Below are positions 8,603-13,416 of a stretch of DNA of 64,000 bases, piece by piece; the first letter of the stretch is position 1; each line of letters starts with the position of its first letter. The notes beneath the pieces are model-generated. The model did not search any database. It was not told the DNA's origin and worked only from the letters and a program-made list of their open reading frames with translations. The position numbers and the translations under genes are program-made. This DNA comes from Herbaspirillum rubrisubalbicans (lineage in GTDB: Bacteria; Pseudomonadota; Gammaproteobacteria; Burkholderiales; Burkholderiaceae_D): assembly GCF_003719195.1 (NCBI RefSeq), contig NZ_CP024996.1:3100001-3164000 (forward strand), given 5' to 3'.

Positions 8603-10831
8603 GTGACTACTGGCAACCCGACCATCATCTATACGCTGACCGACGAGGCACCCTATCTGGCGACCCACTCGCTCTTGCCCATCGTCAAGAAGTTCACCGC
8701 TCCGGCTGGCATCGACGTCGTCGAAAGCGATATCTCTGTGGCTGCGCGTATCCTGGCTGAATTCCCGGAGTTCCTTACCGATGAGCAGAAAGTCCCCGAT
8801 AACCTGGCCGCACTGGGCGCCCTGACCCAGGACCCCAACGCCAACATCATCAAGCTGCCCAACATCAGCGCCTCCATCCTGCAACTGCAGGCGGCCATCC
8901 GCGAACTGCAGGCACGTGGCTACAAGCTGCCCGACTACCCGGAAAACCCGAGCACCGAAGAAGAAAAGGCCCTGCAAAAGCGCTACGCCAAGATCACCGG
9001 CAGCGCCGTCAACCCGGTCCTGCGCGAAGGCAACTCGGATCGCCGCGCCCCCAACGCCGTCAAGAACTACGCCCGCAAGCACCCGCACTCGATGGCCAAG
9101 TGGTCCATGGCCTCGCGCACCCACGTGGCGCACATGCACGGCGGCGACTTCTACGCCGGCGAAAAAAGCCTGACCCTGGACAAGGCGGTCGACGTCAAGA
9201 TGGACCTGGTCACCAAGTCGGGTGAAACCATCGTCTTGAAGCCCAAGCTGTCCCTGCAAGCCGGTGAAATCATCGACAGCATGTTCATGAGCAAGAAGGC
9301 CCTGTGCGCCTACTACGAAGAACAGATGCAAGACGCCTTCGAGACCGACCTGCTGCTGTCGGTGCACGTCAAGGCCACCATGATGAAGGTCTCGCACCCG
9401 ATCGTCTTCGGCCACGCCGTGCGTACCTACTACAAGGACACCTTCACCAAGCACGCCAAGCTGTTCGCCGAGATCGGCGTGAACCCGAACAACGGCATGT
9501 CCGGCGTCTACGAAAAGATCAACACCCTGCCCGAAGACAAGAAGGCCGAAGTGCTGGCTGACCTTAAGGCCGATGAAGCCAAGCGTCCGCGCCTGGCCAT
9601 GGTGGACTCCGCCAAGGGCATCACCAACCTGCACGCCCCCAACGACGTGATCGTCGATGCTTCCATGCCGGCCATGATCCGCGCCGGCGGCAAGATGTGG
9701 AACGCGGCCGGCAAGACCGAAGACACCAAGGCCCTGCTGCCGGAATCGACCTTTGCCCGTATCTACCAGGAGATGATCAACTTCTGCAAGACCAACGGCG
9801 CCTTCGACCCGACCACCATGGGCACCGTGCCCAACGTCGGCCTGATGGCCCAGAAGGCCGAGGAATACGGTTCGCACGACAAGACCTTCGAAATCGCGCA
9901 AGCCGGCGTGGCCCGCATCGTCACCCTGGACGGCCAGGTGCTGCTGGAGCAGAACGTGGAAGAAGGCGACATCTGGCGCATGTGCCAGGTCAAGGACGCC
10001 GCGGTCCGTGACTGGGTCAAGCTGGCCGTGACCCGTGCCCGCCTGTCCGGGATGCCGGCCGTGTTCTGGCTGGACCCGTACCGTCCGCACGAAGCCGAAC
10101 TGATCAAGAAGGTCAACACCTACCTGAAGGATCACGACCTGACTGGTGCCGACATCCAGATCATGTCGCAAGTACGTGCCATGCGTTACACCCTGGAACG
10201 CGTCATCCGCGGCCTGGACACCATCTCGGTGACCGGCAACATCCTGCGCGACTACCTGACCGACCTGTTCCCCATCATGGAACTGGGCACCTCGGCCAAG
10301 ATGCTGTCGATCGTCCCGCTGATGGCCGGTGGCGGCATGTTTGAAACCGGTGCCGGCGGTTCGGCTCCGAAGCACGTGCAACAGCTGGTCGGTGAAAACC
10401 ACCTGCGTTGGGATTCGCTGGGCGAGTTCCTGGCCCTGGCGGTGTCCATCGAAGAAGTGGGCATCAAGACCGGCAACAACAAGGCCAAGATCCTGGCCAA
10501 GACCCTGGACGCGGCCACCGGCAAGCTGCTGGACAACAACAAGTCGCCCTCGCCCAAGACCGGCGAACTGGACAACCGCGGCAGCCACTTCTACCTGGCC
10601 CTGTACTGGGCCCAGGAACTGGCCGCACAGAAGGACGACGCCGAACTGGCCAAGCAGTTCGCCCCGCTGGCCAAGGCACTGGCTGACAATGAGCAGAAGA
10701 TTGTCGAAGAGCTGAACTCGGTGCAGGGCAAGCAAGTGGATATCGGCGGTTACTACCTGCCGGACCGCGAGAAGACCTTCGCCGTGATGCGTCCGAGCGC
10801 CACCCTGAACCAGGCGCTGGAATCGGTGTAA
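8603..10831 (+). CDS. icd: Monomeric NADP-dependent isocitrate dehydrogenase
   Basis: TCA-cycle enzyme converting isocitrate plus NADP+ to 2-oxoglutarate, CO2 and NADPH in the cytoplasm. At 742 aa it belongs to the monomeric IDH class (about 740 aa), unrelated in length to the 415-aa dimeric enzyme. Recognisable segments: the N-terminus [19 protein letters not shown], the substrate-site region SNPNxR-like [15 protein letters not shown], and the C-terminal DIGGYYLPD. The GTG start at 8603 is preceded by AAGGA at proper spacing. Single gene. Its original terminator has been split by the IS element downstream. Confidence 0.96.
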
Positions 10832-10888
10832 GGCGTTGACGCTTGCAGGAGGGTGGATGCTTCGCCCTCCTCCGCAGCGCAAAGAAAA

Positions 10889-10912
10889 GGCCGCGAACTT
10901 GCGTTCGCGGCC
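10889..10912. repeat. Left 24-bp copy of duplicated terminator stem-loop
   Basis: Arms GGCCGCGAAC and GTTCGCGGCC, loop TTGC, preceded by AGAAAA. It is identical to 12481-12504 and directly abuts the left end of the IS. On this side the T-run that should follow the hairpin is missing; it is found after the right copy. This reads as a target-site duplication covering the whole stem-loop. Confidence 0.85.
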
Positions 10913-10925
10913 TCAGATTGATGAC
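10913..10925 (+). repeat. IS left terminal inverted repeat
   Basis: TCAGATTGATGAC; pairs with 12468-12480 with one mismatch. Confidence 0.85.
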
Positions 10926-10958
10926 AAAGCCTTGGCGAGAGCCAAGGCTTTGTTGTTT
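10925..10958 (+). terminator. Terminator inside left end of the IS
   Basis: CAAAGCCTTGGC (10925-10936), loop GAGA, GCCAAGGCTTTG (10941-10952), then TTGTTT. It faces transcription entering from icd and would shield the transposase gene, which starts 9 nt after it. Confidence 0.75.
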
Positions 10959-10966
10959 AATCGGTC

Positions 10967-12433
10967 ATGCTCAAAAAACCGACAGCCGCCCAGCACGAGT
11001 TAGAGATGGTGACCATCGAGATGCTCGTGCCCAAGGACCACCTGCTGCGCAAGATCGACGCGGCGGTGGATTTCGAGTTCATCCGAGAGAAGGTGGCGCA
11101 TCTGTATTGCGCCGACAATGGCCGCCCGGCACTGGACCCGGTGGTACTCTTCAAGCTCTTGTTCATCGGTTACCTCTTCGGTATCCGCAGCGAGCGCCAG
11201 CTCATCCGCGAGGTCCAGGTCAATGTGGCCTATCGCTGGTTTGCCGGATTCCGTTTGACCGACAAGGTACCGGACTCCTCCACCTTCTCCCAGAACCGGC
11301 GCCGCCGCTTCATTGATACCACCGTCTATCAAGAGATCTTCGACGAGATCGTGCGCCAGGCCATTGGACGCGGCATGGTCGATGGCCGTGTGCTCTACAG
11401 CGACAGCACCCACCTCAAGGCCAACGCCAACAAGAACAAGTTCGACTACGTTCAAGTTACCCAGACCCCCTCGGCCTATCTGGCCGAATTGGATGCCGCT
11501 GTGGATATCGACCGTGCCGAGCATGGCAAGAAACCGCTCAAGCGTGACGACGATGATGAGCCGCCCACCAAAGAGATCAAGGTCAGTCGCACCGATCCCG
11601 AGAGTGGCTACATGGTGCGCGACGACAAGCCCAAGGGCTTCTTCTACCTGGATCACCGCACCGTCGATGCCAAGCATTCCATCATTACCGATACCCATGT
11701 CACGCCCGCCTCAGTCCATGACAGTCAGCCTTATCTGGCGCGCCTGGATCGTCAGCGCCAGACGTTCGGATTTGATGTACAGGCCGTTGGCCTGGATGCG
11801 GGCTACTTCACACCGGCCGTCTGCCAGGGACTGGAGAATCGCGAGATCAGCGGCGTGATGGGCTACCGCACACCCAACCACAAGCCGGGGACATTCTTTA
11901 AACGGGCGTATGAGTACGATGCCTACCGTGACGAATACATCTGCCCGCAGGGTCAACCCTTGCGCTACAGCACGACCAATCGACTGGGGTATCGGGAATA
12001 CAAATCCAACCCTGAGCAATGCCGAGGCTGCAAGGTACGCGAGCAATGCACCAATAGCGCCAATGCGGTCAAGGTGGTGACGCGCCATGTGTGGGAGCGT
12101 TCCAAGGAGAAGGTGGATGATCGGCGTCGTACCGAATGGGGCAAGCGCATCTATGCCCGACGCAAGGAAACGGTAGAACGCAGCTTCGCCGACGCCAAGC
12201 AATTGCACGGACATCGTTATGCCCGTATGCGGGGATTGCGCAAGGTCGCCGAGCAGTGCTTGTTGGCGGCGGCGGCCCAGAACATGAAGAAGATTGCCCT
12301 GTTGGTGGCGCGCTTGCGCGCGCTTTTACACGGCTTGAGCGCCTCTGCCAGCGTACAAAAGTGGCTACAGCGAAAAATGAGCGCCTTGCTTGGCTTCTGC
12401 GCCATCGACCATCTGCAAATTACCTGCGCCTGA
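10967..12433 (+). CDS. IS1182-family DDE transposase
   Basis: 488 aa. The N-terminal DUF772-type DNA-binding region (about 15-115) includes LDPVVLFKLLFIGYLFGIRSE in two blocks and the DSSTFSQNRRRRF motif; the catalytic DDE domain follows. Likely catalytic residues: Asp146 (YSDSTH), Asp277 (VGLDAGY) and Glu404 (KETVERSFADAK). A Cys cluster (Cys326, 352, 355, 361) precedes the Glu, as in other family members. Start ATG at 10967 lies directly after the IS-encoded hairpin; no strong Shine-Dalgarno is visible, consistent with low expression. Frame is intact. Confidence 0.93.
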   Translation: MLKKPTAAQHELEMVTIEMLVPKDHLLRKIDAAVDFEFIREKVAHLYCADNGRPALDPVVLFKLLFIGYLFGIRSERQLIREVQVNVAYRWFAGFRLTDKVPDSSTFSQNRRRRFIDTTVYQEIFDEIVRQAIGRGMVDGRVLYSDSTHLKANANKNKFDYVQVTQTPSAYLAELDAAVDIDRAEHGKKPLKRDDDDEPPTKEIKVSRTDPESGYMVRDDKPKGFFYLDHRTVDAKHSIITDTHVTPASVHDSQPYLARLDRQRQTFGFDVQAVGLDAGYFTPAVCQGLENREISGVMGYRTPNHKPGTFFKRAYEYDAYRDEYICPQGQPLRYSTTNRLGYREYKSNPEQCRGCKVREQCTNSANAVKVVTRHVWERSKEKVDDRRRTEWGKRIYARRKETVERSFADAKQLHGHRYARMRGLRKVAEQCLLAAAAQNMKKIALLVARLRALLHGLSASASVQKWLQRKMSALLGFCAIDHLQITCA

Positions 12434-12440
12434 AAAACAA

Positions 12441-12466
12441 AACCCCGTGTTCGAAAACACGGGGTT
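12441..12466 (-). terminator. Terminator inside right end of the IS
   Basis: AACCCCGTGTT (12441-12451), loop CGAA, AACACGGGGTT (12456-12466). On the minus strand the stem is followed by TTGTTTTTC, so it blocks transcription entering from the eut side. On the plus strand it closes the transposase transcript. Confidence 0.7.
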
Positions 12467-12467
12467 C

Positions 12468-12480
12468 GTCATCAACCTGA
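12468..12480 (-). repeat. IS right terminal inverted repeat
   Basis: GTCATCAACCTGA; complement of the left end with one mismatch. Confidence 0.85.
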
Positions 12481-12509
12481 GGCCGCGAACTTGCGTTCGC
12501 GGCCTTTTC
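12481..12509 (+). terminator. Right copy of the icd/eutC terminator stem-loop with T-run
   Basis: Same 24-bp stem-loop as 10889-10912 followed by TTTTCTG. Joining the left flank (AGAAAA) with this copy rebuilds a perfectly symmetric bidirectional terminator between convergent icd and eutC. Confidence 0.8.
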
Positions 12510-12546: not shown

Positions 12547-13416
12547 CTAGCGATCACCCAATAGGAAATTACGCCGCACATCCAGTTCCTGCCCCTCGCT
12601 GGCGGTCTCATCCTTCAAGGCCACGCCCGACAGGCTGCGCTGGTGCGCCTGCGCCATCAGGTAATGCAGCTTGTAGGCTGCCTCCGGGTAGGACAAGCCT
12701 TCCGGTCGCACATTGGAGATACAGTTGCGGCTGGCATCGGTCAGTCCGCGCGCAGGCATCCAGGTCAGGTACAAGCCCATGCTATCGGGCGAACTCAAGC
12801 CTGGTCGCTCACCGATCAGGATCACCACCAGCTTCACGCCCAGCAACTCACCGATCTCATCGGCCACCGCTACGCGCCCCTGCTGCACGATCACCGGAGG
12901 CGCCAGCGACCAGCCTTGAGGGGCGATCCTGTGCATCACCTCGGCCAGGAATGGCGCAGCATTACGCACGATGGCCAGGGCCGACAAGCCATCGGCGATG
13001 ACGAAGCCGACATCGTAGCGACGTTCGCCCACGGTGCCGAAACGCTCAAGCAATTGCTGGCGCGAGGCATCGGACAATCTGCGCCCCAGGTCCGGTCGCT
13101 GCAGATACACCAGCCGGTCCGCTGCCGCGCTCTGCACCTGCAGCACATCCTCGGCGCGACAGATGCCATGCTGCTGCAATTGATTCTTCAGCGCCTCCAC
13201 CTCCAACGGCAGATGCACCGCATCGCGTGCCTGTGCATGGGCCAGTTGGAAAGCCAGTTGTGGCGCGGTCGGCAGGCTCACGCCGCTGCGTCCCAGGGCG
13301 ATGCGTGCAGCGGTAAAACGGCGCAGCGCTTCCCATGGATTGGCGGTGACCGTTTCTGCACCAGGGCTGACGTTTTCTGCACCTTGCGGTGCGATGTCTT
13401 GATCGCCCATGCTCAT
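12547..13416 (-). CDS. eutC: Ethanolamine ammonia-lyase small subunit
   Basis: Light chain of the adenosylcobalamin-dependent lyase that splits ethanolamine into acetaldehyde and ammonia. 289 aa, normal size. Recognised by [49 protein letters not shown] and [11 protein letters not shown], segments that help form the cobalamin and substrate site. The first ~25 residues are a variable extension typical of the family. Its ATG overlaps the eutB stop by 4 nt (ATGA), showing translational coupling. The 3' end faces the IS-disrupted terminator. Confidence 0.95.

Follow-up and report, generated by a model that had tools for sequence, protein, structure and literature searches.

Duplication of intrinsic-terminator hairpins by a putative clade of IS1182-family insertion sequences

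Introduction

An insertion sequence (IS) lying between the convergent genes icd and eutC of a Herbaspirillum genome carries the same terminator-like hairpin on both of its sides, which raises the question of whether the hairpin belongs to the element or is the target into which the element inserted, and, if it is the target, what decides how much of it is duplicated. DDE transposases usually duplicate a target segment of fixed length, and the IS1182 family is defined by one DDE transposase gene flanked by terminal inverted repeats. IS1182-type transposition has been reported to occur with or without duplication or deletion at targets set by sequence or by structure (PMC12056078), and the family was found to be over-represented between convergent genes (PMC9208149). 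That some members target palindromes has been credited to the review of Siguier and colleagues (PMC4923244, PMC5678879).

The window analysed here, a stretch of 64,000 nucleotides, is part of a 5.6-Mb single-contig genome (G000). It was compared with a congener (G024), with further members of the genus and with more distant relatives; L numbers denote individual loci.

Results and Discussion

The element between icd and eutC

The transposase scored 494.6 bits against the IS1182-family model NF033551 (cut-off 270), and the element showed the architecture of that family, with a single 488-aa DDE_Tnp_1 reading frame and 12-nt ends matching at 11 of 12 positions (Table 1). Its closest named IS relatives were from Burkholderiales. 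No solved structure matched the family profile at E values up to 1, and the one structure model made of the transposase had a mean pLDDT of 68. Calling gene orientation by the longest reading frame was unreliable in this GC-rich genome, where an antisense frame was chosen over icd, and was not used.

The limits of the IS, CAG...CTG, were fixed at 1,566 bp by copies in which the adjacent base is neither T nor A (L004, L009, L044), and with these boundaries the identical repeat on both sides, AGGCCGCGAACTTGCGTTCGCGGCCT, is 26 bp rather than 24. The sequence-only reading of this DNA, which had described a 1568-bp IS between identical 24-bp stem-loop copies, was therefore right about the identical flanking hairpins and slightly wrong about both lengths. 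Its proposal that the flanks rebuild one symmetric terminator between the two convergent genes was confirmed: the joined flanks formed a 36-nt perfect palindrome of 16 pairs with a 4-nt loop (-28.3 kcal/mol), and none of 200 shuffles folded equally well. The repeat consists of the GC-rich stem-loop plus one A:T pair and is shorter than this palindrome.

Table 1. Positions of the insertion sequence, its flanking repeats and the neighbouring genes in the window
Feature	Position	Strand	Remarks
icd, monomeric NADP-dependent isocitrate dehydrogenase	8603..10831	+	lies upstream of the terminator
Duplicated terminator hairpin, left copy, 26 bp	10888..10913	.	A-tract outside; inward T-tract gone
IS1182-family IS, 1,566 bp, CAG...CTG	10914..12479	+	
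Left terminal inverted repeat	10914..10925	+	CAGATTGATGAC
Inner terminator-like hairpin at the left IS end, 13 pairs	10924..10953	+	T-tract inward
Transposase, 488 aa	10967..12433	+	DUF772, DDE_Tnp_1, DDE_Tnp_1_6; NF033551
Inner terminator-like hairpin at the right IS end, 11 pairs	12441..12466	-	T-tract inward
Right terminal inverted repeat	12468..12479	-	minus strand = CAGGTTGATGAC
Duplicated terminator hairpin, right copy, 26 bp	12480..12505	.	outer T-tract comes next
eutC, ethanolamine ammonia-lyase light chain	12547..13416	-	convergent with icd

Copies in two Herbaspirillum genomes

Copy searches, in each of which 40 of 96 first-look candidates were scored, recovered 23 full copies and 2 fragments in G000 and 18 copies, about 97% identical, in G024; a pattern taken from the right end of the IS likewise found 25 and 18 places. 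Two G000 copies (L022, L023) are array neighbours of L005 and were omitted, leaving 21 independent full copies, with the repeat of L005 scored using the outer flank of L022. An exact repeat lay on a hairpin at all 21 of these (17-28 bp) and at all 18 copies in G024 (19-28 bp), and at 39/39 the hairpin was that of an intrinsic terminator with an A- or T-tract, so that the expectation drawn from the single locus, that all copies would sit at terminators with the repeat on the stem-loop, held throughout both genomes. At both G000 fragments a hairpin still adjoined the surviving end.

The repeats were centred exactly on the hairpin dyad in 36 of the 39 copies, being off by 1 nt at L008 and L020 and by 1.5 nt at L053. 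They started with A and ended with T in 34 copies, and in 34 they paired end to end over at least 7 pairs, the other five being hairpins with shifted or unpaired ends; the repeats of L014 and L043 ended in unpaired bases. For each repeat length, a perfect end-to-end stem of at least 7 pairs was present at 8-17 of about 64,000 window positions, compared with 34 of the 39 repeats. The IS was 97-100% identical among copies while the flanking hairpin varied by site. Two main variants of the IS, approximately 9 substitutions apart and joined by intermediates, were seen in G000 (L001-L023). Short matches to the IS ends occurred elsewhere in the genus, and none of the three inspected (L028, L029, L037) was an IS copy.

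Empty sites and repeated insertions

G024 lacked the IS at all 16 G000 sites that could be aligned, with 24-238 bp between the aligned flanks. Exactly one perfect hairpin was present at 12 of these empty sites, the single copy that a target-site duplication predicts; the hairpin was altered at three (slightly, by alignment, at L012 and L017, and at L002, where it lay beside another hairpin) and absent at L014 only. Empty sites had been named by the sequence-only reading as a check on its interpretation, and they favoured it. A two-sided G024 locus was missing for four G000 sites (L005, L009, L011, L021), and L013 was occupied in G024. The region downstream of icd gave matches in 33 of 34 genomes, and among the 30 loci listed, none of the 29 from congeners, compared beside the window's own locus, held the IS. 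The icd end was located in 28 of these 29, and in ten (L071-L078, L080, L082) the same hairpin could still be recognised.

At L013 the same terminator held the IS in both G000 and G024, in opposite orientations and with different loops, which indicated that this terminator was struck twice. A three-copy array in G000 had a single hairpin between copies, and its member L005 differed by 9 substitutions from its two identical neighbours while being identical to L004 elsewhere in the genome, indicating that a distinct IS variant had entered the duplicated hairpin of the array. A tandem pair in G302 (L168/L171) shared one short hairpin, resembling the G000 array.

Distribution of hairpin-duplicating elements

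The family was present in 28 of 299 genomes of the phylum, G000 included (E up to 1e-80). Fifty-seven wider loci, collected from similarity matches, six rescanned genomes, regions and plasmid records (20 chosen for variety out of 160 listed), were taken together in one analysis. This analysis omitted L204, L205 and L206, which are of the short-repeat kind; L212, with the same flanks as L203; L163 and L167, second matches in G343 and G103 that have no hairpin-type ends; L063, L064, L065, L068 and L069, which are partial or other matches; and the G000 copies L130 and L158. Both ends were found in 50 of the 57 loci, and 40 of these had exact dyad-centred repeats, one (L173) had an exact repeat on an imperfect hairpin, seven had a hairpin at each end with no exact repeat, and two (L132, L060) had diverged hairpin copies. 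The ends were not found in L165, L218, L062, L201, L209, L213 and L214, although other searches had shown L165 and L218 to have exact repeats on a hairpin, of 22 and 20 bp respectively.

With the wider loci included, repeat length took every value from 15 to 28 bp. Exact hairpin repeats were found in Burkholderia, Collimonas, Rhizobium, Providencia, Salinivibrio, Enterococcus, Brevibacillus and Lentisphaera, and unlike hairpins at the two IS ends in Staphylococcus, Peribacillus and one E. faecalis record. At L137, L203, L208, L210 and L217 different hairpins adjoined the two ends of one IS copy, which recombination between copies or an adjacent deletion into a second hairpin would explain.

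In a tree of 45 transposases, one branch with support of 100/99 separated 25 hairpin-type rows, including the window element, from 20 others; the hairpin and short labels use end sequences as well as repeats, and the loci were collected by similarity. Seven of the 25 hairpin-type representatives (L132, L137, L199, L203, L208, L210, L217) had no exact repeat in the 57-locus analysis, with L199 having one in another register. On the other side, 13 of the 20 rows had 4-bp repeats, L205 had 6 bp and L151 had 8 bp, and no repeat was called for L138, L145, L149, L188 and L206. The repeat of L151, a distant member in G112, lay exactly in the middle of an 18-bp palindrome and may represent a third mode. 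Judged from these sequences, the hairpin-duplicating elements appear to form one clade with members in three phyla.

Target recognition and the length of the repeat

The position of the repeat followed the GC-rich part of the hairpin. Its 5′ end lay 1-3 nt outside the GC core in 35 of the 39 Herbaspirillum copies, at the core edge in 2 and 1 nt inside it in 2, while its 3′ end lay 1-3 nt outside in 33, 4 nt outside in 2, at the edge in 2 and 1 nt inside in 2, and both edges stayed near the GC stem even at sites with a longer palindrome. Repeat length correlated with GC-core length across the 39 copies (r = 0.83, p = 5e-11) when the core was bounded by a run of three A:T pairs. This was the second definition of the core; a first one gave r = 0.53, as three sites have G:C pairs of the palindrome past an A/T run, and the end-to-end stem count, affected by the five repeats with shifted or unpaired ends, was rejected as a predictor (r = 0.12). 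The idea that the duplication equals the full hairpin stood insofar as the GC stem-loop is duplicated. It failed for the full palindrome, which was ruled out in favour of the GC stem-loop with, in most cases, 1-3 A:T pairs added, and for the three repeats that are off centre.

We consider it probable that a clade of IS1182-family DDE transposons targets the hairpins of intrinsic terminators under the guidance of hairpin or cruciform structure, joining at both 5′ feet. The transposase would recognise a GC-rich palindrome that is flanked by A/T tracts and extruded as a hairpin or cruciform. On both strands, the 3′ ends of the IS would be linked to the two 5′ feet of this structure, in most cases 1-3 bp beyond the GC stem. 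All sequence between the feet would then be copied by repair, giving a direct repeat that equals the stem-loop, and as both 5′ feet of an extruded hairpin would be close together at any stem length, the length of the repeat would follow the target. Recognition of a palindromic terminator, proposed by the sequence-only reading, agrees with the location of 39/39 copies on tract-flanked hairpins; the extrusion that it also proposed, together with the chemistry at the 5′ feet, we infer from the geometry of the repeats. Several observations run against a structural model: three of 39 repeats were off centre, five wider loci had unlike end hairpins, L132 and L060 had diverged copies, and IS1272, which is also an IS1182-family member, deletes the hairpin that it targets (PMC5678879, PMC4923244).

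That the cut falls at the GC/AT boundary also in palindromes extending beyond it likewise counts against a structural model, as a transposase reading boundaries in duplex DNA predicts the same. In such a mechanism a transposase dimer would read ordinary duplex DNA at two inverted half-sites, each made of an A-tract next to a GC run, and cut at each boundary, the hairpin mattering only for its symmetry. The concentration of cuts 1-3 nt outside the core on either side, the A...T termini of the repeats and a preference for two-sided tracts (present at 29 of the 39 targets and 13 of 30 background terminators, p = 0.013) are all in keeping with it. However, all spacings between the cuts from 15 to 28 bp are represented, a range of more than one helical turn, and a rigid dimer on B-DNA should favour certain phases. 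The GC cores of the targets (mean 20.4) resembled those of 30 background terminators (mean 20.9, p = 0.55), and therefore neither a length nor a helical phase was visibly preferred. We regard reading of duplex half-sites as unlikely.

An A- or T-tract was found at 39/39 targets but, among the 198 perfect hairpins counted in 400 kb of G000, at only 30 (p = 4e-26), from which a genome total of approximately 420 such targets, about 5% of them occupied, was extrapolated. Such a strict association with terminator-like sites could also arise if the transposase were attracted to RNA polymerase or open DNA at sites of termination, rather than to a DNA hairpin. Termination is directional, however, whereas the preference for two-sided tracts and the exact dyad symmetry of the repeats point to a symmetric DNA signal, and one terminator held the IS in both orientations, making such coupling to transcription rather improbable. 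Insertion might instead be widespread, with only the harmless insertions at terminators lasting, and terminators are indeed intergenic, where insertions should be tolerated. Other intergenic sites should be equally tolerable, yet none of the 39 and 50 resolved copies of the clade lay elsewhere, and survival alone leaves unexplained both the dyad centring (36/39) and a repeat length that tracks the stem-loop; we give this explanation very little weight. That the hairpins are long outer ends of the element, as a hairpin or diverged copy at both ends of every resolved copy might suggest and as the sequence-only reading had allowed as the case against itself, was refuted and has next to no probability, because the hairpin differs from site to site beside a nearly constant IS and 12 empty G024 sites carry one perfect hairpin.

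Termination at the insertion site

At an occupied terminator, each target copy is expected to retain its outward T-tract and to lose most of the inward one. In the rebuilt empty sites, 66 of 78 directions had at least 5 T among the 8 nt following the GC core (mean 5.9). After insertion this was the case in 66/78 reading out of the IS and in 0/78 reading into it, where the mean was 3.2 of 8, a residue of T that leaves the loss of termination less than certain.

The IS carried terminator-like hairpins of its own. In 24 hairpin-type representatives, 42 of the 48 ends had an inner hairpin immediately after the terminal 12 nt. When the sequence behind nt 12 was shuffled (40 rounds), such hairpins appeared at 1.0 of 48 ends on average and at no more than 4. 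The same rule found none at 20 ends of ten short-repeat relatives. The 6 ends without an inner hairpin all belonged to Bacillota elements. Behind the inner hairpins, T averaged 5.3 in the inward direction, where 33 of 42 had at least 4 and 9 had fewer, and 3.0 in the outward direction, where 17 of 42 had at least 4. A terminator scan of the window called the right target copy outward, the left target copy outward and the right inner hairpin inward, three calls versus 1.7 expected from shuffles, which is weak when taken alone.

These inner hairpins, with T-tracts mostly inward, could stop host transcripts coming into the IS, while the target copies could stop IS transcripts going out, and the inner hairpins could in this way restore the termination lost on insertion. 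The safe-site strategy credited to the element on first reading thus needs amending, as insertion leaves a hairpin without a T-tract facing the incoming transcript, a defect that the end hairpins of the IS may repair. The exact 22-nt core of the right inner hairpin was also found as a hairpin outside any IS at L028 (G010) and L029 (G013), and with one mismatch in two more congeners, G008 and G028.

Comparison with known elements

Targeting of hairpins within the IS1182 family is already in print for IS1272. Like the window element, IS1272/TnSha1 of staphylococci belongs to this family and targets inverted repeats or terminator hairpins that share no sequence (PMC5678879, PMC4923244), and its insertion into terminator hairpins was reported with deletion, one terminator being hit repeatedly and in both orientations (PMC4923244). 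IS1272 is larger, at 1,945 bp with a 548-aa transposase, compared with 1,566 bp and 488 aa here. The main difference concerns the outcome: IS1272 replaces or partly deletes the hairpin with no target duplication (PMC5678879, PMC4923244), whereas the window element duplicates the whole stem-loop. Replacement of the IS1272 type was not what we found, since the hairpin was present twice at 39/39 copies and once at 12 of 16 empty sites. Duplication of the whole stem-loop does appear as pathway b of the IS1272 model of Wan and colleagues (PMC5678879, section 29, Fig 13 legend).

Among closer relatives, a transposase labelled ISBma2 (P0017) showed 86% identity over 91% of the query, and the Burkholderia and Collimonas loci L057-L059 matched the window element in the type of their ends and of their hairpin repeats. 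A statement of a target rule for ISBma2 was not found in the open-licence literature, in which PMC10433421 has one passage on the location of ISBma2. The short-repeat members of the family (ISPse1, with 4 bp in PMC3281130, and here L135, L139, L140, L190 and others) share the NF033551 model and the DDE transposase with the window element. They differ in their ends, most of which are (C/G)AG.CTGTGTGAAAACG, in the 4-bp repeats without a hairpin at 13 of 20, and in their position on the opposite side of the 100/99 branch; the 17-28 bp repeats of the window element and its copies do not fit the 4-bp duplication of that branch.

Outside the family, ISPpu9, ISPpu10 and IS1397 resemble the window element in that the available descriptions give their target as intergenic palindromic DNA (REP or palindromic units). 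These elements use conserved REP sequences, not arbitrary terminators, and to our knowledge duplication of a whole hairpin is not a rule for any of them. Exact duplication of the hairpin as a clade-wide rule was not found in the open-licence literature, and as far as our searches reach, this study adds the duplication rule, the precision with which it holds, the clade to which it applies and the hairpins found at the ends of the IS.

Conclusions

In its broadest form the proposal is that a whole DDE clade in at least three phyla recognises a folded hairpin instead of a sequence or a fixed stagger, that the target sets the length of the duplication, and that the end hairpins replace the split terminator, rebuilding working terminators in both directions with each insertion; we hold the arguments for and against this complete picture to be evenly balanced. 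Without folding of the target, it would be difficult to account for a duplication of 15-28 bp that tracks the target hairpin. Comparing the clade with its short-repeat relatives would be a natural way to locate the part of the transposase that reads the hairpin, and taken together with IS1272 they would represent one family able either to duplicate or to delete the same kind of target. Insertion at terminators would also give a simple account of how an IS could reach more than 20 copies in a genome with little damage, and suggests an enzyme that finds DNA shape over sequence, at sites where insertion does little harm.
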